Source of the DNA: Ulva prolifera
Taxonomy: Eukaryota > Chlorophyta > Ulvophyceae > Ulvales > Ulvaceae
DNA: 64,000 bases
Direction of reading: 5' to 3'
NCBI GenBank assembly: GCA_023078555.1
Contig: CM041197.1
Location: 9,332,842-9,396,841 of the forward strand
Below, piece after piece: positions 25,159-58,695 of this stretch. The stretch's first letter is position 1. Every line of letters starts with the position of its first letter. The notes under the pieces are model-generated. The model saw only the letters and a list, made by a program, of their open reading frames with translations, did not search any database and was not told the DNA's origin. Made by a program: the position numbers and the translations under genes.

Positions 25159-26922
25159 CTACTTGGTGAGGTTCAGCGTTCGGATCCAGGAGGCGTGCAG
25201 CTCCTCCGCCGTCGGGCGCTCCGCAGGGTTGCGAGACAGGCACGCGAGCACGCTCGGCTTAAGCTGCTTGAGCTGCAGCAGGCGCTTGCGCTTTGTCGCC
25301 TCGTTCTCCCACGGCAGCATCGCGCGGCCGGTGATCTGGTCGCAGATGTCCTGCTGCGCCATGCCGGAGGGGAAGGCGCGTGAGCGGGTCAGCAACTCGT
25401 AGGCCACCATGCCGAGGGCCCAGACATCCTGGCTCGCCTCGACCTTCATCTGGGTCTTGCCGGCCTCCAGCGCGCGCACGATCTCCGGCGCCGCAAAGTC
25501 GAGGGACACGTTGGACAGCTCCGCCATGGTGCCTGCACGCATGACCACCGCTGTCAGCACGCACCCAGTGCTGCAACGATCGCCCATGCAGCCGCGGCTG
25601 ACCACAGAGCAGCCAGATCGTCATACATCAACCAAACAGGAGCTGGCATGATGCCTCTGCAGGGGAAAAATTGTCACATGCCGGGCTGGCAGCGGCAGCG
25701 GGGGCGTACCGGCGACGTCAGCGCAGCCAAAGTCGTCCAGCGACCAGGTCTGGTGCTTAGGGCGCCAGAGGATGCTCTCGGGGTTGAGGTTGCGGTGCAC
25801 GAGGCCTTGCGAGTGCAGGCCCTTGACCTGGCCGGCGACGTCGCGCAGCACGCGCACGGTCGCCGCAAAGCCGGGGTCACGCTTGTTGCGCGCCCACGTG
25901 TCAAGGCTCTCGCCGCGGTCAGTGATGATGAACGGCGGGAACACCCAGCCGTCCTCCGCGACGACCTCGCCGTCCTCGTTGGACCGAATCTCGGTGACGG
26001 GGGGCAGCGCGGCGCGGAGGTCGCGGTCGGCGTACATCGAGCGCTCGCGCTCGTACGCGGCGCGCGATGTGAAGAACTTGATCGCGTACTCGAGCCCGTC
26101 GGTCTTGCCACGGGCGCGCTGCACGACCGCAGTGTCGGTGAACTCGCGATGCTTCGAGTCGTAGAGTTCGTAGCGCTCGAGGAACGGCCGGGGGGAGCGG
26201 GCCGCGGCGTCAAGGGCCTTGGTGAGGAGCGGGGTGGACACGGTCGCGGACGCGCCGGGGGCGGCCGGGGTGGCTGGGAGCGTCGAGGTCGAGTCGTCGA
26301 CGGCGCGGGAGGAGGCGAGGGAGACGCCGGGGTGCGGCGCAAACACGACGTCGGACGCGGCGCCGGTGCCAGCCGTGCCGGAGGTGCCGCCGGTGGCAGA
26401 TGCGGGGTTGGTCGCGCTTGAGCCGGTCTTATCGCCTGAGGCTGCGGCGGCGCCGATGCCGGCGCCGGCCGCGAGGCCGGCCGCACCAGCCATGACGGCA
26501 GCAGGGACGCCGAGCGGGGATGGGCCGCCGAGAGGGTCAGCGTCGGCCATGGGGTCAGGGAGGTTGTCGGAGGGGAGCACGATGTTACGGTCAGAGGAGC
26601 CTCCGAAGGTCGGGGCGTCTAGCCCGCCGGCGCCGGCGATGCCTGCGCCGCCTTTGCTGGCACTGTAGTCTGCGCCGCCGAGGCCGGCGCCGCCGATGCT
26701 GCGGTCAGAAGCGTTGGCAGCTGCGCCACCGATGCCTGCGCCGGCGAGTGCGCCGCCGAGGCCAGCACCGGCGATGCCAACGCCGCCGTTGCCATTGCCG
26801 ACGCCAACGCCGCCGTTGAAGCCGCCAGGAGGTGCGTCGATGGAACCGAAAGCAGCGTCATGTACGCCAGGAGCAGACCCCCTTGCGGCGCTCTGCACAG
26901 AAGTTCCGCAATGTCAAGTCTG

Positions 26923-26970
<48 letters not shown>

Positions 26971-29900
26971 CCACTCTCGCACGAACACCCGCACAGCTGC
27001 ACGGGAGTGCATCGCATCAGAGACACGGAGGTGTACTTGCAGAAAACGCATTCAACTGCAGGGGCCGCACCACGTCCATCGGAGCAGCAGCAAGGTGGGG
27101 GGAGCCAGGCCCGCCGACACCGCCCGACATGGCAGACGAGGAAGCGATGTTGGCACTCGGCGAGGCGGCACCGAAGGCGCGTGGGGCGGCAGCGGCCGCG
27201 GCCGGAGCCGCAGCCAGACCGGCGCCAGGCACGCTCGACGAGAAGTCTGAGAAGTCGTCCGTCTCTTCGCCGAGGAACGGCGCCGCTGCGCCGACAGCCA
27301 CAAGCTCGTCTTCGTCGACGGCACCGGCATAGCCCGCACCGGCTCCAGCATAGCCGGCGCCAGCGTAGCCAGCCCCTCCGGCGTCTCCAGCCCCTCCAGC
27401 GTAGCTTGCGGCGGGCTCTCCGACCGCTCCGGCACGGCCGACGGCGCCGGCGGGTGGCACGGAACCCACCGCCTCAACGCCGCCGGCGCGGCCTGCGGGC
27501 TGCTGGGACACAACGGAGAAAGCTCCTGCCTGCACTCAGCAGCAACATCATCAGGCCCTGCCGGGCTGTCAAACAATAGATTGTTCTGCGAGGTTCCCAA
27601 CCTCAAGTTTGAGGCTGAAGCTTTGCACATGATGCTATCTATGCCAAATTAATGTGATGTGAGAGTTTGGATGCAATCAAGTGATAACTCAACTGATGAT
27701 GACATGATGATGATGACACGACTGCATGTATATCTGCAGTTCGAGCCCAGCTGGAGATGCGGGGCACAGGGAGGGCAAGGTCAGCGGGGAGGAGATTGGC
27801 TCCATTGAGATTCGGGAAAGGGTGCATTACATGGCAGAACATGAAGAGAGACTGCACGTCGCTGCAACCCAAGACACTCAGATCGATTACCATTCAGAAC
27901 AGGTGGGGAGGCCGCGCACCGGTGCGTCCCGTGTTGCGGCGGCACCCCCGAGGCCAGCGGTGCTGCTATGGCCACCCCGTGGTGTGGCAGCGTCGTCCTT
28001 GTGTCTGCGGGCATACCAGACCAGGAACCCGATAAGCGCGAGAGCCGCAAGGATACCGAAGAGGATGCCGAGAATCAGGCCAAGGTTTGCCTCGCTGGTG
28101 TCGCCGCCGTCGTCGTCAGCAGGGCCAGCCGTCTCGGCGTCGGGATTCTCCTCGAGAGTCGCTGGCTCGGTTTCGATGCCTCCGATGTCAAGCAGCTCGC
28201 CATCAGGCCCGAGGATCTCGCCTTCAGTGGTGGCGGTGGTGCCACGAGGGCCAACTGGCTCGTTTGTGGACAAGTTCCTCGGCACGCCATCGGGGCCGAC
28301 GACGATGCCCTCCGGCAACGCCTCAGGGTCCGGCACCTGGTCGCCGTTCGGCATGTACTGCGTGCCGTTGGGCGCGGTGATGAAGCCGTTCGGAGCGACG
28401 ACCGTGCCTGCGGGGCCGATCGGGTTGCCCTCCCGGTCCACGGGCTGGCCGTCGGGGCCGATGAAGATGCCGTCAGGGTTGGCGGTCGTGCCGCGCGCGC
28501 CAATCGCGTCACCAGAGGCGTTGTTGCGCGGCACGGCCTCCGGGGTGACACCGATGTCGACTGGTAGAACCTCGTCAGGGGGCAGCGGGAGGCCGTCCGG
28601 GCCGACGCGGGTGCCGTTGGCATCCACGAGGTACCCATCCGGCCCGAGGGTGGTGCCGGGCGGCAGCGGCGCGCCTGAGCGGTCGAGCGGGTCGCCGTCG
28701 GCGTCGAAGAACAGGCCGTCACCATTGGCAAAGCCGCCGCGGGGGACGATTGCGGTGCCGTTTGCGTCACGTGGGACCGCGTCGGGCTCGCTGACGGACG
28801 CATTGGGCGGCAGGGAGCTGTCGTCAGGGAAGGGCTGGCCGGTTGGGCCGACGCGCTCCGCGCCGGTCGCGGCGTCGCCGTTCACGATGAAGCCCTCGTC
28901 ATCAATCGTGGTGCCCTCCGGGAAGGGGTCCCCGGAGCGCAGCAGGGGGTTGCCGTCGGGGCCGATGAGGATACCGTCGGGGGAGATGCTGGTGCCGGGC
29001 GGGCCGACGCAGCCAGCCGTCGGGTAGCCGCAGGGTGTCGGCATGACGCCCTCTGCCGAGCGCGGCACGCCGTCAGGGCCGACGGTGATGTTGCCAGGGT
29101 AGGACTGCTCGTCGGGAAGCACGGAGCCGTCCGGTGCGAGTTCGTTGCCTTCACCGTCGGTGATGAAACCAGAGTCCTCGTTGATCGACGCGCCGGGAAT
29201 GGGCGCTCCGGTGCGGTCCAGCGGCGCGCCGCTCGGCGCGACAAACTGGCCAAATTCGTTGATCGTCGTGCCGTTCGGGCCGAGGGTGTCGCCGGCCGCG
29301 TTGAGCGGCTGGCCGGCGGCAGAGACTGTCTGGTTGGTGCCGTCTGGCATGACGCGGATCAGCGCACCCGGTGGCAGGTCGACGCCGGGGAGGGTCAGGT
29401 TGAAGTCGCGGTCGATCGCACCGGGGGGAATGATGTTGCCGTCGGCATCGTAGATCGTGCCATCGGGGCCGACGATGTTGCCGAACTGGTCGACGGACGT
29501 GCCGGGGGGCCCGATGGGGTTGCCCTCTGAGTCCAGAGGCGTCCCGTCAGGCGCGACGATGGTGCCATTCTCATCAACAGTCGTGCCTTCCGGGCCGAGG
29601 GGCGTGCCGTCCTGGCCGTACGGCGTGCCGTCGGGGCCGACGATGTTGCCGAACTCGTCGACGGCGGTACCGGGCGGACCGATCGGCTCTCCCGCGGGGG
29701 TGAACGGCCGTCCGTTGGGGCCGACGATGTTGCCGAACTCATCAACAGTTGTGCCAGCTGGGCCGATGGGGTTGCCGTCAGCATCGAGCGGTTGGCCGTT
29801 GGGGCCGATGGTGACACCCTCAGGGCCAATGGGGTTGCCCTCGGTGTCGTAGGCCTGGCCGTCGGGGCCGACGATGTTGCCGTTCTCATCGATGGTTGTG

Positions 29901-32900
29901 CCGGGGGGGCCAATCGGCGTACCCTCCGAGTCATACGGACGTCCATCTGGACCGACGATCACGCCAGCGTCGTTGACTGTCGTGCCGGGAGGACCGATCG
30001 GCTCACCGTCCGGACCGAAGGGCTGCCCGCCGGGGCCGACGACATTGCCGAAGGCATCCACGGCAGTGCCGGGCGGGCCGATCTCCGTGCCGTTGGTGGA
30101 GAACGGTGTACCCGTGGGAGACACGATGTTGCCGAACTCATCGACGGTCGTGCCGGGGGGCCCGATGGGGTTGCCTTCCGAGTCCAGGGGAGTATCGTCA
30201 GGAGTCGTGATCACGCCCTTTGGCCCGACGGTCGTGCCGGGGGGCCCGATTGGCTCACCTTCAGGGGAGTAGGGCTGACCGTTGGGTGCAACGATGTTGC
30301 CGTACTCGTCAACGCTGGTGCCATCGGGGCCGATCGGCTCGCCGGCGGGAGTCAGCGGCTGGCCGTCAGGGCCGATGATGTTGCCGAAGTCATCAAGGCG
30401 TGTGCCCTCAGGGCCGATAGGGTTGCCCTGACTGTCCAGCGGCTGGCCGGTGGTTGCGTTGATGGTGGTGCCGTTGGGGCCAATGGGCTCACCGTCGGCG
30501 TCAAGCGGGCGGCCGTTCGGGCCGACGAGGGTGCCGCCGGGCGCGATGGTGGTGCCCGGGGGTCCGATTGGGTTGCCCTCGGCGTCGAGCGGCTGGCCGT
30601 TCGGGCCAACGACGTTGCCGTTCGCATCGACCGTGGTGCCTTCTGGGCCGATCGGCTCGCCCGCAGCGTCAAGGGGCGTGCCGTTCGGATCAACGATGTT
30701 GCCAAACTCATCGACGATGGTGCCTGGCGGCCCAATCGGGCTGCCATCAGGGCCGAAGGGCTGGCCGGTGGTGGCATTCACGGTGACGCCCTCGGGGCCG
30801 ATCGGGTTGCCGTCGCTGTCCAGGGGCTGGCCGTTCGGACCCACGAGGGTGCCGTAAGGCGACACGCGGGTACCCTCGGGGCCGATCGGGTTGCCGAGGT
30901 CGTCCAGAGGCTGGCCGTCGGGGCCGACGATGTTGCCGTACGCATCGATGCGTGTGCCAGGGGGGCCGATGGGCTCGCCGTCTGGGCCGAGTGGCTCGCC
31001 GTTCGGGCCGACGGTCGTGCCAGGGGGGCCGATCGGGTTGCCCTGGTGGTCGAGAGGCGTGCCGTCCGGGGCGACGATGATGCCGCCGGGGCCGACGGTG
31101 GTGCCTGGGGGTCCGATGGGGTTGCCGTCAGTGTCGTACGGCGTGCCGTCAGGGGCGACGATGTTGCCGAACTCATCGATGGTCGTGCCGGGGGGGCCGA
31201 TCGGGTTGCCCTCATCATCCACTGGCTGGTTCGTTGGGGTGAGCCCGAAGCCGAATGGAAGTTCGCGCGTCATGATTACTGCAGAGAAGAACCCGTTTTT
31301 CTTACAGCTCTCACCACATGGTGTGCACTTTCATATAGCGGCAGCGAGGCCAGACATATGGCACAGCAGCTTGATTTTGTTTATTTTTTTTCAGCATACT
31401 ACACAGCGCCACTGAGACAGTGCTCTGCTATTCAATGCGCAACGGCTCCACTGAGCTGTGCTACAGATTTGCAATGCGGTCACTGTGCAGGCACAAACAC
31501 AAGATGCAGGGATTGGATCGTGGGAGCAGGCTGAAACACACTTGGACTCGCAGAGACAAAACATATCCGCGGATTCATTAGCAAACACGTGCTCTATGCA
31601 AAATATATCACAGCAGACAAGGTCGTGTGCACGTTGCAGGTACTAATGTGGGCGAAATTGTGTGGTGATCGTCAACACAACACTGCCACCCCGCACTCCG
31701 GCAATGCGGTGACGATCAATCATGTCTGGCCAACAGATGCTCAGACAAGGGTAGTATTGCCTCAAAATTAGCAGCCATGGCGCAGCAAAACACTGCAACT
31801 TCTCAGTCAAGGCGCTCGGGCATGAAGTATGCAGCACACACCAGGGGCCGGGGCCATGTCCGGGGAGACCGCGCCGGGCGCCAGGGGCAGCAGCGGCACA
31901 GCAGCGACGGGGGCGACCGGAGCCACAGCGGGGGCGACGACCGGGGCCACAGCCAGAGGTGCCACTGGCGCCACGGCAGGGGCGACCACCGGGGCAACCT
32001 CCACAGGCACAATAGCCGGGGCCAGGACTGCCGGAGCCAGCGCGGGGTCGACAGCGACAGGGGCCACAGCAACAGGCGCCACAGCGACAGGGGCCACAAG
32101 CGGCTCCACAGCTTCGAGCGGTCCTTCGACTGGAACGATGGCTGCAAGCAGACAAACCAGGGGGTGAGCAGAGAGACACAAGCACACGGCCACACCCAAC
32201 AGGCAGCGTGAATGCTGGTGCAGCAGAGGCAGGGGGCTATTGACAGGAGTCATGGCATCCAGGCGGCACGGACACGGGTACGGGGGGTACCTGGGAGCAC
32301 GACAGGAATCGGCGCAGCCGTTGGGCCAACGTCTGTGGGAGCAAGTGCAATGCTGGGTTCAAGTGCCTCAGGTGCAAGGATGTCAGCGACAGGGGCATTG
32401 CCAGGGGCAAGAACATCGTCTGCGGGCTGCGGGGCTGCGGTGTCTGGAAGGGGTGTGTCTGCATCAGGTGCATCTGCGTCGGGTGTGTCTGCAACAGGTG
32501 CTTCTGCGTCGGGTGTGTCTGCAAGAGGTGTGTCTGCAGGTGCGTCTGCGTCGGGTGTGTCTGCATCAGGGGTGTCAGCGGGGACGTCGGCGTCAGGCAC
32601 AGCGGCAGGGGTGGGAGTGGGAGTGGCTGGTGCGTCTGCGGGTGCCGCTGCATCGGGGGCAGCGGTTGCGGGAGTGACTGCAGCAGGGGAGGGTGTGGGT
32701 GTACCTGCGGGGGCATCCGCTGGGACTGGCACGCCAACAGCAACGCCGGCAGGTGACGGAGTCACTGTTTCGCTGTCAGCTGGTGCCTCACCTGTTGGCT
32801 GAGTGCCCACAGGGGCAAGGTCCCTGATGTCTTCTGGGGCTCCAGTCGGCGTAGGTGTGGCCGCGCCAGGCACAGCTGCGGCTGGAGCCTCTGGTGCCGG

Positions 32901-35900
32901 AGCACCCGGAGCTGGCGCATCCGGTGCTGGTGCATCGGGCGCTGGTGCATCCGAAGCTGGCGCGTCGGGTGCTGGCGCGTCGGGTGCTGGCGCGTCGGGT
33001 GCTGGCGCGTCGGGTGCTGGCGCGTCGGGTGCTGGCGCGTCGGGTGCTGGCGCGTCGGGTGCTGGCGCGTCGGGTGCTGGCGCGTCGGGAGCTGGCGCGT
33101 CGGGTGCTGGCGCGTCGGGTGCTGGCGCGTCCGGTGCTGGTGCATCAGGTGCGGGTGCGTCGGGAGCTGGCGCGTCGGGTGCTGGTGCATCAGGTGCGGG
33201 TGCGTCGGGAGCTGGCGCGTCGGGTGCTGGCGCGTCGGGTGCTGGCGCGTCGGGTGCTGGCGCGTCGGGTGCTGGCGCGTCGGGTGCTGGCGCGTCCGGT
33301 GCTGGTGCATCAGGTGCGGGTGCGTCGGGAGCTGGCGCGTCGGGTGCTGGCGCGTCGGGTGCTGGCGCGTCGGGTGCTGGCGCGTCGGGTGCTGGCGCGT
33401 CGGGTGCTGGCGCGTCCGGTGCTGGTGCATCAGGTGCGGGTGCGTCGGGAGCTGGCGCGTCGGGTGCTGGCGCGTCGGGTGCTGGCGCGTCGGGTGCTGG
33501 CGCGTCCGGTGCTGGTGCATCAGGTGCGGGTGCGTCGGGAGCTGGCGCGTCGGGTGCTGGCGCGTCCGGTGCTGGTGCATCAGGTGCGGGTGCGTCGGGA
33601 GCTGGCGCGTCGGGTGCTGGCGCGTCGGGTGCTGGCGCGTCCGGTGCTGGTGCATCAGGTGCGGGTGCGTCGGGGGCTGGCGCGTCGGGTGCTGGCGCGT
33701 CCGGTGCTGGCGCGTCCGGTGCTGGTGCATCAGGTGCGGGTGCGTCAGGTGCGGGTGCGTCGGGAGCTGGCGCGTCGGGTGCTGGCGCGTCGGGTGCTGG
33801 CGCGTCGGGTGCTGGCGCGTCGGGTGCTGGCGCGTCGGGAGCTGGCGCGTCGGGTGCTGGCGCGTCGGGTGCTGGCGCGTCCGGTGCTGGTGCATCAGGT
33901 GCGGGTGCGTCGGGAGCTGGCGCGTCGGGTGCTGGTGCATCAGGTGCGGGTGCGTCGGGAGCTGGCGCGTCGGGTGCTGGCGCGTCGGGTGCTGGCGCGT
34001 CGGGTGCTGGCGCGTCGGGTGCTGGCGCGTCGGGTGCTGGCGCGTCCGGTGCTGGTGCATCAGGTGCGGGTGCGTCGGGAGCTGGCGCGTCGGGTGCTGG
34101 CGCGTCGGGTGCTGGCGCGTCGGGTGCTGGCGCGTCCGGTGCTGGTGCATCAGGTGCGGGTGCGTCGGGAGCTGGCGCGTCGGGTGCTGGCGCGTCGGGT
34201 GCTGGCGCGTCCGGTGCTGGTGCATCAGGTGCGGGTGCGTCGGGAGCTGGCGCGTCGGGTGCTGGCGCGTCGGGTGCTGGCGCGTCGGGTGCTGGCGCGT
34301 CGGGTGCTGGCGCGTCCGGTGCTGGCGCGTCCGGTGCTGGTGCATCAGGTGCGGGTGCGTCAGGTGCTGGCACGTCTGGTGCCGGAGCATCCAGAGCTGG
34401 AGCATCAGGTGCCCCACCTGCAACAACAACGGCACCATCATCAGTATCTGCTGGTGGATCTGGTGCGTCACCTGCTCCATCGCCTGCAGATGCGTCTGGT
34501 GTGTCATCTTCAGCAGGTGTGTCTGGTGTTTCACGGTCTGCAGGTGTAGCTGGTGTTCCGCCATCGGTGGGTGTGTCTGGTGTTTCACCATCGGTGGGTG
34601 TGTCTGGTGTTTCGCCATCGGTTGGTGTGTCTGGTGTTTCGCCATCGGTGGGTGTGCCTGGTGTTTCACCATCGGTGGAGGCAGCAGGGCCATCGCCATC
34701 CCCATCTCCGTCGCCGGGGGCAGCAGGGCCATCGCCGTCGCCGTCTCCATCGCCGGGGGCAGCCGGGCCATCACCGTCTCCGTCGCCGGGGGCAGCCGCG
34801 CCATCGCCAGGAGCAGCAGGGCCATCGCCATCACCGTCTCCGTCGCCGGGGGCAGCAGGGCCATCGCCGTCTCCGTCGCCGGGGGCAGCAGGGCCATCAC
34901 CGTCTCCGTCACCGGGGGCAGCAGGGCCATCGCCAGGAGCAGCAGGGCCATCGCCATCACCATCTCCATCACCGGGGGCAGCAGGGCCATCGCCGTCGCC
35001 GTCTCCATCGCCGGGGGCAGCCGGGCCATCGCCATCTCCGTCGCCGGGGGCAGCAGGGCCATCACCGTCTCCGTCACCGGGGGCAGCAGGGCCATCGCCA
35101 GGAGCAGCAGGGCCATCGCCATCACCATCTCCATCGCCGGGGGCAGCAGGGCCATCGCCGTCGCCGTCTCCATCGCCGGGGGCAGCCGGGCCATCGCCAT
35201 CTCCGTCGCCGGGGGCAGCAGGGCCATCACCGTCTCCGTCACCGGGGGCAGCAGGGCCATCGCCAGGAGCAGCAGGGCCATCGCCATCACCATCTCCATC
35301 GCCGGGGGCAGCAGGGCCATCGCCGTCGCCGTCTCCATCGCCGGGGGCAGCCGGGCCATCACCGTCTCCGTCGCCGGGGGCAGAAGGGCCATCACCGTCT
35401 CCGTCACCGGGGGCAGCAGGGCCATCGCCGGGGGCAGCAGGGCCATCGCCAGGAGCAGCAGGGCCATCGCCATCACCATCTCCATCGCCGGGGGCAGCAG
35501 GGCCATCGCCGTCGCCGTCTCCATCGCCGGGGGCAGCCGGGCCATCACCGTCTCCGTCGCCGGGGGCAGCAGGGCCATCACCGTCTCCGTCACCGGGGGC
35601 AGCAGGGCCATCACCGTCTCCGTCACCGGGGGCAGCAGGGCCATCGCCGGGGGCAGCAGGGCCATCGCCAGGAGCAGCAGGGCCATCGCCATCACCATCT
35701 CCATCGCCGGGGGCAGCAGGGCCATCGCCGTCGCCGTCTCCATCGCCGGGGGCAGCCGGGCCATCGCCATCTCCGTCGCCGGGGGCAGCAGGGCCATCAC
35801 CGTCTCCGTCACCGGGGGCAGCAGGGCCATCGCCAGGAGCAGCAGGGCCATCGCCATCACCATCTCCATCGCCGGGGGCAGCAGGGCCATCGCCGTCGCC

Positions 35901-38900
35901 GTCTCCATCGCCGGGGGCAGCCGGGCCATCACCGTCTCCGTCGCCGGGGGCAGAAGGGCCATCACCGTCTCCGTCACCGGGGGCAGCAGGGCCATCGCCG
36001 GGGGCAGCAGGGCCATCGCCAGGAGCAGCAGGGCCATCGCCATCACCATCTCCATCGCCGGGGGCAGCAGGGCCATCGCCGTCGCCGTCTCCATCGCCGG
36101 GGGCAGCCGGGCCATCACCGTCTCCGTCGCCGGGGGCAGCAGGGCCATCACCGTCTCCGTCACCGGGGGCAGCAGGGCCATCGCCAGGAGCAGCAGGGCC
36201 ATCGCCATCACCATCTCCATCGCCGGGGGCAGCGGGGCCATCGCCATCACCATCTCCATCGCCGGGGGCAGCAGGGCCATCGCCGTCGCCGTCTCCATCG
36301 CCGGGGGCAGCCGGGCCATCACCGTCTCCGTCGCCGGGGGCAGCCGGGCCATCGCCAGGAGCAGCAGGGCCATCGCCATCGCCATCTCCGTCGCCGGGGG
36401 CAGCAGGGCCATCGCCGTCGCCGTCTCCATCGCCGGGGGCAGCCGGGCCATCACCGTCTCCGTCGCCGGGGGCAGAAGGGCCATCACCGTCTCCGTCACC
36501 GGGGGCAGCAGGGCCATCGCCGGGGGCAGCAGGGCCATCGCCAGGAGCAGCAGGGCCATCGCCATCACCATCTCCATCGCCGGGGGCAGCAGGGCCATCG
36601 CCGTCGCCGTCTCCATCGCCGGGGGCAGCCGGGCCATCACCGTCTCCGTCGCCGGGGGCAGAAGGGCCATCACCGTCTCCGTCACCGGGGGCAGCAGGGC
36701 CATCGCCAGGAGCAGCAGGGCCATCGCCATCACCATCTCCATCGCCGGGGGCAGCAGGGCCATCGCCGTCGCCGTCTCCATCGCCGGGGGCAGCCGGGCC
36801 ATCACCGTCTCCGTCGCCGGGGGCAGCAGGGCCATCACCGTCTCCGTCACCGGGGTCAGCAGGGCCATCGCCAGGAGCAGCAGGGCCATCGCCATCGCCG
36901 TCTCCGTCGCCGGGGGCAGCAGGGCCATCATCGGGGGTTGCCGGTGTGGCACCGCCTGAGGGTGTGTCTGGTTCATCGCCACCTGCGGGGCTATCTGGTG
37001 TGGCACCGCCTGAGGGTGTGTCTGGTTCATCGCCACCTGCGGGGCCGTCTGGTGTGGCACCGCCTGAGGGTGTGTCTGGTTCATCGCCACCTGCGGGGCT
37101 ATCTGGTGTGGCACCGCCTGAGGTTGTGTCTGGTTCATCGCCACCTGCGGGGCCGTCTGGTGTGGCACCGCCTGAGGGTGTGTCTGGTTCATCGCCACCT
37201 GCGGGGCTATCTGGTGTGGCACCGCCTGAGGGTGTGTCTGGTTCATCGCCACCTGCGGGTGTGTCTGGTGTGGCACCGCCTGAGGGTGTGTCTGGTTCAT
37301 CGCCACCTGCGGGGCTGTCTGGTGTGGCACCGCCTGAGGGTGTGTCTGGTTCATCGCCACCTGCGGGTGTGTCTGGTGTGGCACCGCCTGAGGGTGTGTC
37401 TGGTTCATCGCCGCCTGCGGGGCTGTCTGGTGTGGCACCGCCTGAGGGTGTGTCTGGTTCACCGCCACCTGCGGGGCTGTCTGGTGTGTCGCCGTCGCCG
37501 GTGGCAGCTGGTTCATTTCCGCCACCGGGGATTTCTGGGGTCACAATGACAACATCAACGTCAACATCGTCAGTGTCACCTGGACCGTCCGGTGCTACAA
37601 TGATGACATCAACGTCATCAGTGTCACCTGGACCGTCCAGTGTCCCACCTGCAGGTGTGTCTGGTGTGTCTGGTGTGTCACTGCCTGCGAGTGTTGATGG
37701 CGCATTGCCGCCGGTGGCGGTGGTGGGTGCATCGGTGCCTGTCGGGGTGTCTGACGGGCCACCATCGACGGGTGAGTCTGGAGTGTCTGTGTCTGCGGGA
37801 GGTTCACGTGCATCACCATCGGTGGGGGTGCCTGATGCATCGTCTACAATTCCGCAGGTGTATGGAGTCAGAATGGAGGCATCGGTGCAGCACGGACGTA
37901 CGAGGCCTCTCTGTGCAGCATGGTATTCAACATGGTATTCAAGAGGCCAATATGGCATGGAAACGAGGCCTGGATCACAGGCAACACTGCACAAGCAAGA
38001 ACAAGGAAGGCGACACGAGCTCTGTGATGGGTATGCAAATTTGCCGTGTGCCAAACTGCGTCAGCGTACTGCATATGATAGGTAAGTAGCACAAAACTTA
38101 GGAGGTCAACAGCATGTGCATGCTGATGGACACAATCGAGCACAGGGCATGCAGGCTCCCCATGCAGGCGCGTCGGGCATCACGTGGGGCAGTCAGCAAC
38201 AGCATGTAGCCGTATCAACACAAACGCCAGACGCACGCAGAGGCAAGGTGTTGCGGAATAAGTAACGTACGCGCAACGGCCTCCAGGTGTTCAACACAGG
38301 CATGTGACATCTTCAAGGCATTGGTGCATTGGTGCATACCGTCAGCAGGAGGGTCGGCCGTGGGCGTGGGCGTGGCTGGAGCGGCATCCCCCTCATCGCC
38401 CTCATTGCCTTCGTTCCCCTCATTGCCTTCATTGCCTTCGTTGCCCTCGTTTCCGTCATCTGGATTTGCGGCTGGGTCAACAGGCGGCTCATCAGCGCCC
38501 TCATCCCCCTCGTTACCCTCATTGCCCTCGTCGCCCTCGTCTCCTTCATCACCTTCATTTCCGTCGTTCCCCTCATCCCCTTCATCACCCTCGTCCCCTT
38601 CATTCCCCTCATCCCCATCATCGCCCTCATCACCCTCGTTCCCTTCATCACCCTCGTTGCCCTCGTCGCCATCATCGCCCTCATTCCCTTCATTGCCCTC
38701 ATCCCCTTCGTTCCCCTCATCGCCGTCATCCCCCTCATCTCCTTCATCCCCCTCATTCCCTTCATTCCCCTCATTCCCCTCATTGCCTTCATCGCCATTG
38801 TCATCGTCCGGAGACGGCCCAACAGGTTCAGCATCACCCTCATCACCCTCATTCCCCTCGTTGCCCTCGTTCCCTTCATTGCCCTCATCTCCATCATCTG

Positions 38901-40053
38901 GATCAGCGGCAAAGCCTACAGGTGTCGGGTCAGTCTGCTCTCCCTCATTCCCCTCGTTGCCCTCATCCCCTTCATTCCCATCGTTTTCAGGAGTCCCGAC
39001 GGCACCTTCATCGCCCTCGTTCCCCTCATTCCCTTCATCGCCTTCGTCGCCCTCATTGCCATCGGTGGCATCCTCAGCGAAATTAGGTGTGGTGTCCCCC
39101 TCGTTTCCTTCGTTGCCCTCGTTGCCCTCATTGCCTTCATCACCATCACCCGAGAGGTCGCCTTCATCCCCCTCATCTCCCTCGTTGCCCTCGTTGCCTT
39201 CGTTGCCCTCGTTGCCTTCGTTGCCATCACCCCCGGGAGTCGGATCACCGGGTTCGTCGACAATAGCGTCATCACGGCCTTCTCCTCCCTCGGAGCCGCC
39301 TTCGTTGCCTTCGTCACCCTCATCACCTTCATTCCCGTCGTTGTCTGGGGATGTTATGGGGGGCGAATCGCTGGACCCGGAGTCCTCGCCACCAGCAGCC
39401 TGCCCTTCCCTGCCTTCGAGAGTGCCCTCGTTGCCTTCGTTGCCTTCGTCACCATCGGATTCACTCTGGCGCAGCCTGCGGCCTGTGCTGCTGGCATCGA
39501 TGAAGCCTGCAGAAGCGTGTGAAGATGAGAAAGCGACGGTTTACACACAAGGTGTCGCTACACAGCACATGCCAACACCCAGCGACGGAGAGGAGGACAC
39601 TGCCAACATCAGCTTGAGTTTCGCACCAAGAGCAGACACCATGGAGATGCAGTGAACACATATAGCTGGAGGACAGTTGACTGAAACAAGATGCTGCACA
39701 TGCTACTCACATTACAGGGCAGCCTGGGAGGCTTACCTGCTCCAGTTACATCTGTCTCCCATTCTAGTTCCTGCACGCAAGAATGCAACCTCACTTTGTT
39801 TACAAAGGTTACTAGGTGCACTGTCACTGCAAGATTCTATCAACAGACCAGATGTGTAGAGGCATGACACAACCAACAATCACAGAAACATGCGCCAGCG
39901 TTTCAGCAGCAAGAGCCATACCGTGCGGCGTACTGGTCTGTTGGCAGCGGAAGACAGCGGCGCCAATCTGCCCTCAGTTGGTAGGCAGGCTTGAGTGGCG
40001 AAGACGGCGGCCAGCAGTGCCACCGCCACATGACACCAGCTTGGACGCATCAT
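25159..40053 (-). CDS. Giant receptor-like pseudokinase with about 3,400-residue repeat ectodomain (9 exons, 4,182 aa)
   Basis: Exons in transcription order: 40053-39934, 39770-39737 (34 bp), 39506-38340, 37843-32291, 32141-31842, 31278-27920, 27529-27071, 26892-25710 and 25532-25159. They join in phase to exactly 4,183 codons. The N-terminus is a signal peptide (MMRPSW, then hydrophobic VAVALLAAVFATQA). The ectodomain has successive repeat blocks: GDEGNEG, an 18-residue PDTPSGG unit, GDGDGDGP, TPTDGETPD, DAPAP, VAPVAV and a 28-residue GPPGTTVDEFGNIVGPDG unit. One membrane span covers residues 3457-3480, followed by basic ARRHK. After a Gly/Ala-rich linker comes a kinase fold: YAIK (Lys3936), VHRNLNPESIL, LDDFGC (4051-4053), AAPE, DVWALG. 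The HRD Asp is Asn4032, the Mg-binding Asn is Ser4037 and the glycine loop is lost, so catalysis is unlikely. Exon 1 may instead end at 39922, exon 4 may start at 37831. Confidence 0.85.
26924..26969. repeat. (CA)n microsatellite in the last-but-one kinase-side intron
   Basis: About 23 CA units, read as (GT)n on the coding strand. It lies 32 bases upstream of the acceptor of the exon starting at 26892, where a polypyrimidine tract would normally be. Confidence 0.97.
27960..31240 (-). repeat. 84-bp / 28-residue coding repeat array of the receptor ectodomain
   Basis: The unit is GNPIGPPGTTVDEFGNIV followed by GPDGTPLDSE. It recurs some 35-38 times across exon 31278-27920. Units near 29900-31240 are close to the consensus; toward the membrane side (28100-29400) they become degenerate with spacers. 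Variation is concentrated at a few positions (VDEFG / VGPNG / INATT), while the GP, GT, G-N and PDG positions are almost constant. I do not recognise the repeat as a named domain. Confidence 0.9.
28013..28084 (-). other. Transmembrane segment of the giant receptor
   Basis: Encodes LGLILGILFGILAALALIGF plus LVWY, an uninterrupted 24-residue hydrophobic stretch. It is preceded by acidic DDDGGDTSEAN and followed by ARRHKDD, which fits a single-pass protein with the repeats outside and the kinase-like domain inside. Confidence 0.9.
31842..32141 (-). repeat. Val/Ala/Pro-rich exon of the receptor ectodomain
   Basis: A 300-base exon encoding VAPVAVAPVAVAPVAV-like sequence, bounded by an acceptor TGCTTGCAG and a donor GTGTGT. 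It bridges the DAPAP exon and the 28-residue repeat exon in phase. Confidence 0.85.
32890..34395 (-). repeat. 15-bp array encoding about 100 DAPAP units
   Basis: The + strand unit is GGTGCTGGCGCGTCG with variants. The - strand codes Asp-Ala-Pro-Ala-Pro repeatedly. Nearly all visible unit differences fall on bases 3, 6, 9, 12 and 15, which are third codon positions in this frame. The synonymous variants recur in the same order as blocks, giving a higher-order repeat structure. Confidence 0.95.
34550..34682 (-). repeat. 27-bp array encoding TPTDGETPD
   Basis: About five copies of a nine-residue Thr/Pro/Asp unit between the DAPAP array and the GDGDGDGP array. Confidence 0.9.
34683..36935 (-). 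repeat. Array encoding AAPGDGDGDGP units
   Basis: About 2.2 kb of A-A-P-G-(D-G)n-P units in 15-, 27- and 33-base forms. The mixture of forms repeats in longer blocks of a few hundred bases, marked by synonymous changes and the occasional S for A. Confidence 0.95.
36940..37495 (-). repeat. 54-bp array encoding TPSGGATPDSPAGGDEPD
   Basis: About ten tandem 18-residue units. Neighbouring units alternate DSPAG, DTPAG and DGPAG. Confidence 0.95.
38390..39470 (-). repeat. 9-bp-based array encoding GDEGNEG
   Basis: An acidic Gly/Asp/Glu/Asn stretch of roughly 350 residues built on three-residue steps (GNE, GDE, GDD), broken by four spacers such as FAADPDDG and a GTPEND-containing one. The opposite strand reads as a long hydrophobic I-A-L-V frame without stops, a compositional shadow. 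Confidence 0.9.
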
Positions 40054-49773: not shown

Positions 49774-50097
49774 TTAATTGTCTTTAAGCTGCGCCTTAAA
49801 TTGGGTTAAGTGTAGTTCAGCAGCCCTAACGTCCACAGATGCCGCAAGCATAGTACAAAATGCCTGTGCCCCCTTGACAGCAGCATGCAGTGTTTGGGGC
49901 AGCAGCTCTTTCGAACGTGTACAGATCCCATCATGCAAGTTGCCTGCAGCCGCTGACGCTGTCTGCCAGATCCGACAGACTGTTGCAAGTGACGGCATTC
50001 AGGAGCTGGAGATGATTCCAGCTGCTCATGTGAACCAGACTGCTGCATCCTTTGAGGGTAGGGCATGTGAGCTGGCAGCAGCCTGGATGCCCGACAT
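49774..50097 (-). CDS. Possible small two-exon gene (about 81 aa)
   Basis: A possible first exon, 50097-50041, starts ATG and encodes MSGIQAAASSHALPSKDAA. A 78-bp intron (weak GTCTGG donor, CTGGCAG acceptor) joins it in phase to 49962-49774, encoding TASAAAGNLHDGI, KELLPQTLHAAVKGAQAF and a helical end RAAELHLTQFKAQLKDN before TAA. The second exon looks like an amphipathic helical tail. No family is recognised and the donor is poor. Confidence 0.27.
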
Positions 50098-51034
50098 GGC
50101 TGCACACGAGGTGGCATTACTTCCACAGCATCCTTGTCGCACCAGGTGTGAGATGTGGAGAAAACGCACCGGAATATGGTCATACTGTGGCATGTGCCGG
50201 CATAAGACGGGTGGATCTGCATGCCAGTTGCTATGTACACGCACCGTCTCGATGGTTTACATCTGCTGTGCGGCAAGCCGTCCGCACCTTCACAGAGCAT
50301 TCAGCTTCACTGCATGAGGCGTGTGTTCAGATCGCACAATGCCCCGCCGGAGCCGAGTCACATGCCGCAGCGTGTCACGTTTACACAGTAAAATTAGACA
50401 TTCATCCTTCACGCTGGCCACTGCTGCGGAGCTCCATGTGTACAGAAAGCCTGGGCTGTTGCCGTTGGCAGCGTGCGGAGCCGCCGAGGGGCCCCGCTCG
50501 GCAGCAGAGCTGTACATAACATCGCAAGAAGTCAAAAACTGGACCAGGCAGGACGGCCCATGCCCTGGCCGTCAATGCATCGGCCCAATGCATGTATGCA
50601 TTCCAATGCGGCATCGAGCCATCATCATGAGATGCCTGCGCCGCCATGCTTCCTAGCACATTCTATAATCATCCCCGGCCCTGCGCCGCCGCAGCCCCGG
50701 CCAGCAAACAACTCACAGCCACCTCGGCCGACAGCCACGAATTCGCCAACACATGGCTTCTCAGAATAGGCTGCGGTGCGACCCCACGCATGACGACACA
50801 GGATTGATAGCGGCAGTCATGGCTGCTCCACCTACAAACACGGCCGCTGCCAACCAGCCCGGTGGGGACGACGCTTGCGTGTCGGCTCACACGCCAGTCA
50901 GCACGCTGCAGCGGCTCGGTGGGCTATGGAACGGCAGCAATTGACGTGCCGACGCCGCACCTGCCCGCCACCTGCAAGCACCGCCTTGCGGCAGGAGGCG
51001 GCCGCGCGGCCGAGCCCGGCAGCGCCGCGGGTGC
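50098..51034. other. No gene recognised; 3' flank of the receptor kinase
   Basis: Short frames on both strands only. The right part should hold the 3' untranslated region of the kinase gene on the - strand. Confidence 0.45.
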
Positions 51035-54000
51035 TCACGCCTTGGGAGCCTCGACCGTGTCCACCGCCTGGCGGCCCGCGAGGTCATTCGTGTTTGCGCC
51101 GACGGCCCCGCTCCCGCTCGTGAACGTGTCAAACAGGCGGTTCCACGACCGCAGCAGCCGGTCCGCGGTCGGGCGGCCCTTGGGGTCACGCGACAGGCAC
51201 GCCAGCACCGTCCGCTTGAGGATGCGCAGCTGCTTCAGGCCCTCCATGCGGTGCTCGGGGTCCTCCCAGGGGAGGGGCGCGCGGCCGGCGATCTGGTCGC
51301 GGACCTCGGAGCGCGTGAGGCGCGCCGGGAAGACGCGGGCGCGGGTCAGGAGCTCAAACGCGATGACGCCGATGGCCCACATGTCGATGGCCGGGTCGGC
51401 GATGACCTGGCGCTCCTTGCGCTCGACGGCGTGGATGACCTCCGGGGGCGCGTACAGCAGGCTGAAGCTGAGGCCGACGGAGGAGCCTGCATGAGCGTGG
51501 AGGTCAGGCGATGCACAAGCCACATGCGTACGCAACTTCACACGTGAGCCCCGCAGTGAAGAGCGGAGCGAAGTACCGTACTAAACCAAGTCCATCGACA
51601 TGTAGCGCGTACCGCTGGGTTTTATAGGTACCGAGGTAGGTACATATAATTAGCAGTTTTCACGGTGGCTGGCCCACAAAAAAAACATATGATTTAATAG
51701 ACCTGGACCCCATGTAACACTGCCCTTTTGTCGATGCACTTAATTTAGTGCGGTACACCCAGGTATGTGCATAGGCGATGGAGTGGCACAACACGGCGCA
51801 GCAGGCATAGGCTTGGCAAGCATCCGTCCTGATCCAGAGATCTACCCAGCATCAAGGCGGAATCAAATCACCAGCGCACACGCCTCGGTGCTGGTGCGGC
51901 TTGTTTGCCCTTCAGTCTGACTGCACGCACTCTGGCCGGCCGCGCTTACATTGCAGAGCATCAAGAACCGCAAGAAAGCATTTCTGTCAGACGCATCAGA
52001 AAACTGATCACAGTGAAGCGGCTGTGCGGCGAGGGTGTGGAGCACAGCGAGCCGGCAGCAGGGCATATCCGGGACTGCCCTGACGCCCGGCCAGACTGCA
52101 AGAAGGTCCACTAGTGACAGCATCCGGTGAACAGCGCCTAGTCAACTCCAGATGCATGCTCTGTCGCAAAATCCGCGTCACTGTTCTGCTGCATGAGGAC
52201 GGTGGAGGAAAGGGGTGGACGAAGCACTTTTGAGTGTTCAGCGTGAGGACAGGCGTCGCAATGCGGTGAAAAACGACAGTGGTGTCGGCGTTGGCATGGG
52301 TCACCATGCCCCCGTTTGTCTCACCGTTGAGGCGAAGGCCGGGACAGCAGATGAGGCCAACATGCCTGGACCAGCGCGCCGTCTCTCCTTGCAATGGCTT
52401 GTATGCACGAGTATGCATGCATTGACACGGGCGTTGGCAGCAGGAAGTTGTGACACACCTGCAGCGGCGGCACAGCCAAAGTCGATGAGTGTCCAGGAGT
52501 GGTGTTGCGGGCGCCACAGGATGTTCCCCGGCTTAAGGTCCCGGTGCACGAAGCCGGCGGCGTGCAGCTGCTGCAAGCGGGTGGCGACATCGCACAGCAC
52601 CTGCACCCATCGTCGCCCCCTCAGCCACAGCTCCAGCTGTGCTATACAGCCTCGACCCTGCAGAGTGTGGCCCAAGGGCATGCTGTTGCCGCACCACAGC
52701 GGCGATGCAGCCCTGTGGACGTGCGACTACTGTTCGTTGCCGTTATAGCAGCACTGCCCGCCCGCTTCATCCCGCAGCACGAACGATTTGTGGCTCGCAA
52801 CGACACCTTGGAGCCAGCCAGACTGACGCAAAGCCTTGGCCGAGGCCACGACTGGGGCAGCCCGTAGCACCAAGGCATACAATGACGTGTCAAGGGGCGA
52901 CAGCGAATCGAGACGAGCTCATGCGTCAGCGACAGTGGGTCACAGACGCGGCAGAGGGCGAACGCCTGCTCAAAGGACACAAGAGAAACGCACGTTGAGA
53001 ATCGTCGGGAAGCCCGGCTCGATCCGCGTCGCCCACTCGTCCAGCGACTCCCCCTTTTCCACGACGATGCACGGCGGAAACACAAAGCCCGCGGGCGTCG
53101 CGTAGCGGCCGTCCGCGTTCGGCACGACGTCGATGACCGCCGGCATCATGCTGCGCAGGGCGGGCTTGTCGTAGAGCGCGCGCTCGCGCTCAAAGCCCGC
53201 GCGCCGCGTGAAAAACTTGATCGCGTACGACTCCTGCGTGCTCGCATCGCGCGCGAACTGCACGACACCCTGGCCGCCCATGCGTCGGTCCCCCGGGCCG
53301 GTGATGATGTAGCGGTCGAGGAACGGCGCGCGAGACTTTGCGTAGTAATCCAGGGCGAGGGCGAGTGTGCCTTCCGGCGCGGCCGCGACAGGCACGGCGC
53401 CGAGGGGGACGCCGACGGACGGCGCCGGCGACTCGCCCGGGTCCACCGCGAGGGGGGAGAACTGGTGGCCGCCGGAGGACGGCGGGGTGTGGACGCGGTG
53501 CGAGCGGCGGTCCGGCGCGTGGCCCGGCCGCAGCTCCGAGTCACTCGGCGTGCTCTGCACGCCGCTCGGGTCCGCGGGGGGCACGCGGAGCTTCGCGAGC
53601 GGCGGGGTCGGGCCGGAGAGGGGCGTCGCGGACGCGGTAGGGTCAACCGGGGTCGCGTAGCCGCTTCCCGGCGCATACGCGGGGTACGAGGCGGCGGATG
53701 CCGGCACATCTGATGCGGAGAGCGCGCTGCTGGCCGGGCCGCTGAGGCCGCTGCTGGCGGTGGCGTTGGGGTGCGGCCGGGGGGCGCGGGGGTCGTCGGC
53801 GAGGTCCGGCGGCGGCTTGAGCGTGATTGGGGGCGGCTGCGGAGCCACGCCGGCGTGCGGCGTGTGGAAGCCGGGCGGCTGCGGCGGCCACGGCTGCACG
53901 GACTGGGGGTTGTACGCGTGCACCTGCTCGGCGGCCGGCAGTGAGCCGGGCGGCCCATGGCTGTAGTACTCGCTGGTCGGCACCGTGGACTCGTGCAGGG

Positions 54001-57000
54001 TGTTGCTCTGCATGCATGCGGAGGGCTTAGACGCCAGCGATACCGAGGGGCCCGACGACACAGCGAGCAGACAGCGTCGGCGCGTGCAGCCCGCGATCTG
54101 CAGGTCGGGATGCACCATTGCTCCCTGCATCCACTGCACTGCTGCGCACGACGGGTAAGGGGCACAGTTGCTGTCTGCCTGCTTGTGGGCTACGCAGCTA
54201 CCGACCCCGCCCCCGGCTGCCGCGCATGACACGCGATGCCATGCATGCGCCAGCGAATCGCATCGCAGAATCAGGCATCAGCTGCGGAGCATGCCGCCTC
54301 ATGCATGTGTCCAGCGTCCAGGCGCTCCGCGGTGTGTGGCAAGGACGAAAGCAAGATGGCAGGTAGCAGTGCAGGAACAGCGCGCAATGACCCGAACACA
54401 ACCACCAATAGCGCACACCAGTGCATAGTGTGTGGCCAAAGAGACGTCGGGAACAGTGGGGGGGGGGGAGGCGCACGGTGGCGCCGTTGGCCTGGTGCGC
54501 CTTGTCCTCCTGCGGTGCCTGGCGCCGGCGCCGCAGCATGCGCGAGATGAGGACCCCCAGGACTCCGAGCAGGACGATGCCCAGCACGGCGGCGCACACC
54601 GCGAGTGCGATCTTGAGGCCGTCGCTGCTGGCCGTCGCCGCCCCGGAGATGGCGCCGGTGTCGACTGCGGCCCACTGCAGCTCCGCCGCCTGCACCATGC
54701 CGCAGCCATCATGTGCTGCTCTGGAGGAGCCGCGGGGGGCACCGCCGCAACGGTCTGCTTTGGAGATCTGCCATGCAATGGCTTGAGCCCATGTGATTCG
54801 CTCACCGCTATGTCGCCACACCAGCAAGCAGCCCAGGGAGGTCTGTGCTGACAAGGCGACGGCAGCCAGCAGCGGCACGCGTGACTGGTCACTGCTGTAC
54901 GCGTCTGCGTGTCTGTGCGTCTGCCACGTGTCTGTACGTGTCATGTGAGCTACATGTCACCGCTCATGCACATACAGCAACAGCAGCCCATGAAAACCCT
55001 GCACCCTGAGCAGTGGCCATGGTGACACTGTGGCCCCACTCATGCGATGTCGTCAGTGTCCCACATAAGACATAGCTAGTCAGATGACATGCTTTACACA
55101 CGTGCACACACAGGGCATGGTGCACAGGCAGGTTATTCTGCAGGATACGAATGAGAATTTCTGGCTGTGAGAGATGTAGGGCGGCCCATATGGCCCATGA
55201 ATGCAGCAGGGGTGCTGCCTTTCCATGCCTCCTGCAAACGTGTGATCGCCGAGACACCAAGGCGCGCCCGCGAAGCAAGCTGCGCTGGCGTGATTTCTGC
55301 GTCCTACTGACTGGGTCATCACGTCAGATGTATATGGCACGCCTCGCCACTGAGCATCGCAGCAGATGTATGTCCCCCCTCCCCCTCTGCCTTGCTCCCG
55401 ACCCACACCAAGCCCCTGGATGCGGTCGGGGAACGAAGGAGAGGGGAGGAGCAAGCAAGAAGGGGGGGGGGGAGCACCTCCTTGATGTCTAGTAGCCAAG
55501 GGTCGGTCGTTGAAAGAGGAGCGACATTCGGCACAGGGTCGCTCTGCTGGGGTGAGTGGGTGTCGAGGTCATACACCGTCGCCGCCTCCCCATCCACCAT
55601 GACTGCCGCCGACTGGTCCACTGCAAACCTGTACTCTACCGGCAGCTCGGCGCCCTGCAGCCACACGGCCGGTCAGCTTCGGCACAGCGGGCGCATCCCC
55701 TACGCTTGGCGTATGCATGGCCCACACTCCCGCCGTCAGTGGCTATGCGCTTCAGATGTTCGTCCGGAGCGAGGGGGACATGTAGCGCATAAGCAGGAGC
55801 TGCGGCCAGGGGGCGATCTGGCGGAGCAAGGGTTGGGCTGTGCCACCCGTTGTGTGACGCCAGAGGTGGTTGGTCGATCAAGCAGCCACGGGAATGGGGA
55901 TACGGCTGCCTGGCCGGGCACTGACCACCCGGTCAAAGGCATCTTGGAGGGCTCAGCGGCACGCGCTCGGCCAAGCGTACAGTCTGATGGACATTTGAAA
56001 GGCCCAAGCCTCGTGATGCATACATTGTGAATAAGGGATGGGCATGCGAGGGCGCAACATGAGCTGCCCTTTGCACTCAGTGTGATCGGGCGGGCAAGGT
56101 CACCAGGCGCCTGAGCCTCAGATGTGCTTGAAGTCGCACAACACGAGCACTCTCACGCCGCCTCATGCACACAGTGTGATGAGCATCGGCGGGGCCAGCA
56201 GGGGAGGGGGGCGCACGGCGGCGGTGAGGTTGGTGAAGGAACAGTCGGTGAAGTTGGCGAACGAGTCCTTGCGTAGCCGGGCGATCGCGCCGTTGGCATT
56301 TGGCCCGACTGCCTCGAGCAGGGAGTTGTCGTCAAAGAGGACGCCATGGAAGGAGGCGGAGGCGGAGGCGCTGAGCAGCAACGCGGCGCCGCCTGCCGTC
56401 TCGCGGAAGCCCCGCACCGCGCCGCCTGCACACATGTAGCCACACCTTCCGCATGTGCTGTGACTCTTACGCCTCTGCTGTGCTGGTTGCATGCAGAGCA
56501 TGCTGCTGTGGCATGCATTACGATGCTGTAAGAGTATGCATATGGGGCAGAGGCGGCGATCCTGATCTAATATAACATGGTACATATGCTTACAGCAATG
56601 TGCACGTGCTCAACTCGGGGGATCACTGGGGCTGCATCACACAGTGTTGACTAACGAAGGCTTGCAGTGCCACAGCAGGTTCTGCACCTGGGAGGCCAGA
56701 TAGATAGCACTGCTACGAGCGGACTGACCAAGAGTGCATGCTGGAGGATGCAGTGAGCACCCGGTGGCACGAACTGCCCAGGCCCGACAAGGCCAGAAGG
56801 AAAGAAGCGTGGGCAGCATGGTGGTGGTGGTGGTGGTGGAGGTGAGTGCATGCGCTAGTGGTTTGCACGCACCAGTGACACGCGCATAGCCAGCACATTA
56901 ACATGTTAGTCTGCGAGGGTGAGGGGCATTGCATCACATCAGGACGCGGGCGTGATGCAGCCGTACATGCCCTGGTACATCTCGGGACATGACACCTCTG

Positions 57001-58695
57001 CCACTGTGTTACAAGCACAAGGCGGAGAGGCAGGCAGCATCGCAACAAATCCACCACTGCGCCACACTCGCCCGCAGCAGCATAACGACCTGCTCCACTT
57101 GCATCGACTCGACATGTGCGGATGCGGCCACGGCAAAAGCAACAGCCTCGCACAGGACCTATGCCGATACAGTACATAAGCCGCATACATGGACTGAATT
57201 GTTTCCAGGAGACCTGCCAGATGGGCAAATGCCGTTGCCGGCAGGGGACCCCCAGAAGCAAGCAGAAGCGTCTGGGGACAGGGAGTCTGCGCACCTTGCA
57301 TGAGCATGCTGCGCTCGCGCTTCACGTCGAGCGCGCGCGCGGCATGCGCCGCGCCCCCGGCAGCCTCGAGCACGACGTCCGAGAGGTAGAGGGCGGTGCC
57401 GTTGCCGAGCACGGCGTCGGCGCGGCCGCCGGCAGGCACCGCCTCGATGGCCTCCTGCCGCAGGTGCAGCTGCGACAGCAGCAGGCGGCCGCCGTCGTTG
57501 TCCGACACGAGGCCCGCCGGCGGCTGCTGCGCGGCGAGGAGGTCCTCCTGGAAGAGCACTGTGCACGCGCTCTCGTGTACGCCCGGCGGTAGCGCCTTGC
57601 CACTGTTGTCACACCGCCCCTGCAAATAGTGCACGCTCGAGCTGGCTTGAAGCTGCACTGCAGGCCAACGACAGCAGTGCTCAAGCTGGCTTGAAGTTGG
57701 GCTGCAGGATACTCGCGGAAGTGGCGATGGGCTTGAATTGAGAGATGCTGACCGGCCATCGTGGAACGGGTTGCTCTTTTTTGGAACATGGAGTGAAGGT
57801 GTAACGCATGGACAGGCTGCACAGTGGGGTGCTGCATTGATGCTTTTCTTTGGGATTGCATGAACGCAATGGATTTGGGGAATTATACAGTGCCACACAG
57901 GCTCGGACCGTGTCTGTGGAAGTTGGCATTGGATTTGAAACATGGACGATGCAGATATTGGCATCAGATGTCATGCTGGGCTAGCAGTTACCTGTCTGCA
58001 TTGCAATACGAGGCTGCTACGCAAGACATCTGCACTTGACGTATGCTCTATGACTCGAGTGGCAAAAGTGTCTGTTTAGACCTGCTGTTGCCAACAGCCT
58101 CAGTCATGCTTGCTGGTACTCTCTGAAAGGGTCCATGTGCATGACTGGCTGCAACTGTGAGACTGAGGTGAACTAGGTTCAATACACCGAAGTGTATCGA
58201 AGATGCCTCTATGACGAGCTGAGGATGACTGTTGGTGAGGCTTTGCTGGAGACATATATTTTGCTGTGATGGAGTCGTCCAACTCCAAGCAGCGCCAGGT
58301 GCAAGCGAAGCAGATATAACAGCGCCACCTCCATAGCACGAGCGTGATACGAACAGATTGAGCGATGGAGAGACATGTCAGGAGTGGTCGTGGCCTACCT
58401 GAATGACAGAAGTCGTAGTGGCCTTGAGAACTCCGCAATTGGGCTCGGTCGTCGCCACTGGTAGCGTACGCATGTCGACATCATTTATAAGGAAGATAAA
58501 TCTGGTGCCTCTGCCAACAGCAAGTTGAAGATGCTCGGCTGTGGCCACGATTTCATACAGATCGATGAGCTGGTTCACACGTCCCGGACCATCAGGGACA
58601 AGGCACGTGCGGCGCTCATTGTAGAGCTGGGCTGTCACAAGGGAGCCACTCAAAGCTGCTTCAGCTAGTAGCAGGGCAGCCACGGCGGATCGCAT
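51035..58695 (-). CDS. Receptor-like protein kinase with intact catalytic residues (8 exons, 942 aa)
   Basis: Exons in transcription order: 58695-58399, 57619-57295, 56425-56217, 55654-55478, 54689-54477, 54007-52994, 52600-52459 and 51486-51035, all in phase. The start MRSAVAALLLAEAALSGS is a signal peptide. Exons 2-3 encode NGTALYLSDVVLEAAGGAA, then FHGVLFDDNSLLEA and FANFTDCSFTNLTA, resembling parallel beta-helix (Pmp-like) repeats with N-glycosylation sequons. The membrane span is about residues 363-384, followed by SRMLRRRR. A Pro-rich linker precedes the kinase: PFLDRY, loop MGGQGVVQFARD, YAIK (Lys671), VHRDLKPGNILW (Asp766, Asn771), DFG (785-787), APPE (805-808), DMWAIG and a C-terminal RPTADRLL. 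All catalytic residues are present, so an active Ser/Thr-type kinase is likely. The kinase region is paralogous to that of the gene at 25159, and the intron just after DFGCA is in the same phase 1 position in both. Confidence 0.9.
54332..54370 (-). mobile_element. Retroelement 3'-tail, family B, in an intron of the receptor kinase
   Basis: On the - strand this reads GCACTGCTACCTGCCATC, TTGC, then TTTCGTCCTTGCCACAC, matching the tail at 4863 with some changes. It lies in the intron 54008-54476, in the same orientation as the gene. Confidence 0.55.
57005..57040 (-). mobile_element. Retroelement 3'-tail, family B, in an intron of the receptor kinase
   Basis: On the - strand GATGCTGCCTGCCTCTCCGC then CTTGTGCTTGTAACAC, matching 4298 and 4863. 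It lies in intron 56426-57294. Confidence 0.55.

Follow-up and report, generated by a model that had tools for sequence, protein, structure and literature searches.

Whether two neighbouring receptor-like kinase genes, one of which appears to have lost much of its catalytic machinery, constitute an active receptor and its dedicated partner is the question raised by the stretch of DNA analysed here, a window of 64,000 nucleotides (G000:C2:9332842-9396841, approximately 60% GC) that forms part of a eukaryotic genome assembled into 44 contigs (88.9 Mb). The genes, hereafter gene A (25159.., minus strand) and gene B (51035.., minus strand), lie on the same strand and are separated by approximately 11 kb. 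The original prediction, made from the window alone, had proposed that B is an active receptor and A its allosteric or scaffold partner, analogous to pairs known from ErbB receptors and plant receptor kinases.

Models of both genes were built on reading frames and splice signals, and minus-strand reading bore out the kinase domains and motifs previously placed in A and B, with GT-AG introns evident between the kinase exons. In gene B these exons are 54007-52994 (linker and kinase N-lobe, with the GGQGVVQF loop and YAIKFF), 52600-52459 (the HRDLKPGN catalytic loop at 52546-52523, followed by DFGCAAAAG), and 51486-51035 (the last exon, encoding the C-lobe with LLYAPPE and ELLTRARVFP); in gene A they are 26892-25710 (low-complexity linker, kinase N-lobe, HRN catalytic loop, and DFGCADVAG) and 25532-25159 (the last exon, encoding the C-lobe with GTMAELSN..FAAPE..NLTK and the stop, and entered through the phase-1 acceptor GTGCAG). 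A phase-1 intron directly after DFGCAxxAG is common to both genes, and B has one extra intron, upstream of the catalytic loop, relative to A. Each kinase is joined by an in-phase splice model to an exon with a single membrane span. In B, the span and stop-transfer sequence LKIALAVCAAVLGIVLLGVLGVLISRMLRRRR occupy 54477-54617 (exon end at 54477, start putative); in A, an exon at 27920-31273 (5' end putative) carries 28-residue, DUF3659-like GPPGT repeats and ends with one strongly hydrophobic span (LGLILGILFGILAALALIGFLVWYARR, 28084-28004) and a basic tail, and a phase-0 splice chain leads on to an exon for a low-complexity cytoplasmic linker (27071-27529). No second membrane span was found in the modelled parts of either gene. 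Signal-peptide-like starts, judged by eye, are present at 58695-58630 in B (MRSAVAALLLAEAALSGSLVTA) and at 40053-39988 in A (MMRPSWCHVAVALLAAVFATQA), and putative ectodomain exons extend over 55500-58695 (B) and 32250-40053 (A). Genes A and B thus look like putative single-span receptors; of the receptor layout initially proposed, the span, linker, and kinase stand in phase in both genes, the signal peptides are calls made by eye, and the ectodomain joins are putative.

The upstream exons of gene A (approximately 40 to 31 kb, of low complexity) are plausible, and the putative ectodomain that would follow the signal-peptide-like start consists of acidic GNEGDEG, GGDEPDTP, DGDGPAAPGDG, and DAPAP repeats. 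At the DNA level, positions 32911-37488 of the window hold long tandem repeats (a 15-base unit in approximately 98 copies, plus 33- and 54-base units), from which one minus-strand frame translates as DAPAP, DGDGPAAPGDG, and GGDEPDTP. The GPPGT repeats match Pfam DUF3659 (PF12396; 5.8e-19; window 28084-31230, minus strand). The pieces of the gene B ectodomain that were scanned have no Pfam match, which rules out their assignment to a Pfam family, and no Pfam LRR, lectin, or malectin domain was found in the ectodomain pieces scanned from either gene. When searched against the genome, a 142-residue piece of the gene A GPPGT repeats and a 181-residue piece of the gene B ectodomain each matched only themselves, so that sharing of either piece across the wider family is ruled out, in line with the earlier view that the putative ectodomains of A and B are unrelated.

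Of 284 aligned columns, 131 are identical between the two kinase domains (46%; pairwise E 2e-91), and the profile check confirms the kinase fold of both, at 75.1 bits (A) and 89.6 bits (B) against a curated Pfam Pkinase cut-off of 31.7. Gene B keeps the glycine loop (GGQGVV) and the Lys of AIK and, as anticipated, the Asp and Asn of HRDLKPGN and the DFG Asp, and from these residues it looks catalytically competent. In gene A, FTDTA replaces the glycine loop (FTDTAVVQRARG, 26107-26142, where the family has GGQGVVQF), and the catalytic loop at 25797-25774 reads HRNLNPES versus HRDLKPGN in B, that is, Asp to Asn (codon AAC at 25791-25789, in the context CACCGCAAC), Lys to Asn, and Asn to Ser, with AIK, DFG, and APE retained. 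All of this agrees with the features foreseen for gene A, and the loss of the catalytic-loop Lys goes beyond them. Given the loss of the canonical catalytic residues (glycine loop, Asp, Lys, and Asn), gene A looks like a pseudokinase, and we infer that its product is without catalytic activity; phosphorylation does occur in some HRD-less kinases. The very short activation segment that had been ascribed to both genes did not hold up, since the stretch from DFG to APE measures 25 residues in gene A and 24 residues in gene B, an ordinary length, the activation segment of PKA being 25 residues.

The setting of the two genes was established by searching the genome with B and then with A, which returned 149 and 139 matching pieces, respectively. 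Merged by hand, these give a receptor-like kinase family of at least 131 loci, a lower bound that leaves out two loci on contig C23 repeating C7 and that counts loci not proven to be genes, some of the matches having stops inside them. The 131 loci are distributed over C1-C10 and are strongly clustered (41 on C5, 29 on C2, and 23 on C4), and 81 of them have another member within 26 kb; expansion largely by local duplication forms part of the joint explanation that is considered probable below. Dense arrays occur at about C5:7.2-8.0 Mb and C4:6.3-6.7 Mb. Contig C23 (28 kb) carries its copies of the two C7 members (approximately 0.62-0.64 Mb) with identical scores and may be a duplicated contig or an alternative haplotype.

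An upstream membrane span recurs in this family. Fourteen loci had 1 kb or more of sequence read ahead of the N-lobe (1.5 kb was used); in 10 of them, B included, the kinase is preceded by a membrane span with basic residues after it, with scores of 2.38-2.93 versus a best score of 1.21 in the opposite-strand control. No span was found within 1.5 kb upstream at the other four (L017, L018, L030, and A); that of gene A lies beyond this distance and was found separately by the in-phase splice model. Of the 118 genome matches to Beta_helix (PF13229), just one by coordinate reading, at C1:7171709, shares the strand of a family kinase and is no more than 10 kb upstream of it, and Chlam_PMP gave none. 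By manual count, 55 of the 118 Beta_helix matches form a dense array with long open frames at C2:0.13-0.98 Mb.

The catalytic loop could be read at 113 of the 131 loci (17 of the remaining 18 lay outside the reading of that exon, and in one no loop was found), and all 113 carry a Trp just ahead of DFG or of the corresponding site. The signatures once regarded as unusual and shared by A and B in particular are found across the family, and their being peculiar to these two genes is ruled out. HRD, Asn, and DFG are all present at 100 of the 113 loci; the Asp is absent at nine (five HRN, two YYA, one HRA, and one HRG), three more keep the Asp and are without the Asn or an intact DFG, and one has HGD. 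Every HRN seen is encoded by CGC AAC, which a single CpG transition would produce from CGC GAC, the commonest codon pair in a count that includes overlapping locus copies. With three further catalytic features lost in gene A and HRN present at four other loci, a base error or lone oddity is ruled out as the source of its HRN. The two loci with YYA for HRD, L054 (C1:4369206) and L130 (C4:6061291), are on different chromosomes and perhaps have one inherited non-canonical loop.

Four of the nine Asp-less loci are included in a tree of 54 rows (55 rows minus one dropped for coverage), the other five lying outside it, and the four require four separate changes. A single origin of these rows was rejected (AU p 0.0157); as all four are long branches, the rejection provides moderate evidence for repeated, separate loss of the catalytic Asp in the family.

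The explanation that we consider probable is that A is a single-span receptor pseudokinase, one of several that arose separately in a locally expanded family of at least 131 loci, and that B is an intact-looking neighbour by chance. The long, disordered, acidic ectodomain of A would sense or anchor to the extracellular matrix, and its kinase-fold domain would, upon clustering, act without catalysis, either by binding an intact family kinase and positioning it in a hetero-complex or by competing for one. The partner could be any intact member, B among others, and nothing marks B as the partner of A.

The alternative that survives best, unlikely as it is, holds that A is a decaying gene heading for loss and that its motif losses are functionless. 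The long branch of A in the 54-row tree (1.22 changes per column versus 0.37 for B) is as decay would have it, as are the stops within matches at several family loci and the single CpG transition (CGCGAC to CGCAAC) by which HRN is reached. Nevertheless, the 287-residue kinase domain of A is free of stops and frameshifts, the splice signals are intact, and the C-lobe and DFG/APE are conserved, although neutral drift at such divergence should leave stops or frameshifts. In view of so long an open frame despite so long a branch, the kinase of gene A has probably been kept as coding sequence.

Quite unlikely, too, is the arrangement first proposed, in which the two genes would be inherited as a unit and form a dedicated receptor/pseudoreceptor pair, A serving B as an allosteric or scaffold partner. 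The common strand, the spacing, the 46% identity, and the shared phase-1 intron after DFG are all compatible with such a pair, and EFR/BAK1, in which a receptor kinase is activated non-catalytically by a partner kinase domain, is reported as a precedent (PMC11259431). The tree likewise gives no sign that the two kinase domains fall in distant clades, as the 54-row tree places both in one half, whose division from the other is weakly supported (59/74), and their sisterhood is neither established nor excluded by the tests (AU p 0.333 with 19 rows and 0.287 with 54 rows). However, at least ten other members are closer to B. In an identity ranking of the 35 of 55 rows with at least 200 of the 284 columns, gene A is outside B's ten nearest among the 34 ranked, and the two nearest are on other chromosomes (C1:4386394 at 64.5% and C8:2847984 at 59.4%, versus 46.5% for A over B's columns). 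Gene A is itself 48.2% identical to C8:2847984, with which it is grouped in the best 19-row tree, albeit with weak support (44/82).

Neighbourhood adds little to the case for a dedicated pair. A third member, at C2:9322432 (36 kb from A and approximately 10 kb outside the window), belongs to the other half of the 54-row tree, and most family loci (81 of 131) have a neighbour within 26 kb. An Asp-bearing member lies within 26 kb of five of the nine Asp-less loci and of 57 of the 104 Asp-bearing loci (Fisher p 1.0); the counts at 36 kb (6/9 versus 66/104) and 50 kb (6/9 versus 74/104) show no difference either, and preferential placement of Asp-less members beside Asp-bearing ones is ruled out. 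Because the family is clustered, finding a dead kinase next to a live one is expected anyway, and because the family to which both genes belong has at least 131 loci, their adjacency is no evidence of a working pair. The proposal of an active receptor with its own allosteric partner is accordingly not supported. A better sister pair than A and B is provided by L075 (C2:1328933, HRD) and L076 (C2:1364776, HRN), which are 36 kb apart and group with support of 98/92; the catalytic loop and DFG of L076 are intact apart from HRN.

It is highly improbable that A remains catalytically active by means of displaced residues. The beta-3 Lys is present, as are the DFG Asp and a further Asp adjoining it (LDDFG), but the loop Asp, Lys, and Asn and the glycine loop are lost together.

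As regards the type of kinase, both A and B have Pfam Pkinase scores above those of PK_Tyr_Ser-Thr. A family profile built from seven members gave STK17B, OSR1, B-Raf, CHK2, RSK, DAPK3, TAO3, and PAK6 among its top solved chains, and no plant RLK chain occurs in the best 60 of the 952 solved chains that match it. Fourteen NCBIfam models match far under their cut-offs (the best at 56.7 bits versus 650). No report of such a kinase family was recognised in the open-licence literature, where absence does not equate to being unpublished.

Known systems offer partial likenesses. ErbB3 with ErbB2 is a receptor pseudokinase beside an active family member, although ErbB and Eph receptors are animal tyrosine kinases with ectodomains unrelated to those of A and B; PSKH2, a human pseudokinase, is not a receptor. 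The Eph receptors EphA10 and EphB6 are described as further receptor pseudokinases beside active members, and PSKH2 has HRNLKPEN versus HRDLKPEN in its relative PSKH1 (PMC7586955). Gene A thus resembles PSKH2 in the change of HRD to HRN with DFG and AIK kept; unlike gene A, however, PSKH2 retains the Lys and Asn of its catalytic loop and a largely preserved glycine loop (GTGSFS), according to the same source (PMC7586955). Plant RLKs with pseudokinase members are similar in having a single span, a kinase fold, some dead members, and large families, e.g., BIR2, which is reported to act by competition for BAK1 (PMC10868138), and EFR, which is reported to act allosterically with BAK1, without catalysis (PMC11259431). 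They differ from A and B in the solved-chain search and in the LRR, lectin, and malectin domains missing from the pieces scanned here. An analogy of A and B with ErbB receptors or plant receptor kinases is no more than possible. Brown-algal LRR receptor kinases, which are said to have evolved independently, likewise form a lineage-specific receptor kinase set in an alga (PMC8307928), but in another lineage and with another ectodomain.

The A/B pair is ordinary in its setting, and the expansion of the family is more notable than the pair. In its tabulated part, a 2024 review gives one to four plant-type receptor-like kinases per listed chlorophyte (one for Ulva mutabilis and about four for Chlamydomonas reinhardtii), and a study cited therein found receptor-like kinases in only nine of 18 chlorophytes (PMC10868138). 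Set against one to four, at least 131 loci is an unexpected size, a comparison that is suggestive only, as the review counts plant-type RLKs (PMC10868138). If most of the 131 loci are expressed receptors, some green algae would have large receptor systems that have been missed by such counts because the kinases are of another type. More tentatively, it is possible that a non-RLK/Pelle receptor-kinase repertoire of at least 131 loci was built independently in a green alga, with fast-changing ectodomains and approximately 8% (9 of 113) repeatedly arising pseudokinases, several of them via one CpG change; if true, this would amount to a large cell-surface receptor system that is distinct from land-plant RLKs and has dead co-receptors of its own. 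The recurrent Asp losses would also supply natural replicates for how receptor pseudokinases arise and work.

Lastly, the host is likely to be a green alga. Light-harvesting proteins are encoded in the genome, and the one that was tested is of green LHCII type, being closest to LHCII chains, its top whole-sequence score being to a two-domain chain of 9vfj. The genome's actin is closest to 7ju4/8glv, which we take to be Chlamydomonas axoneme structures.
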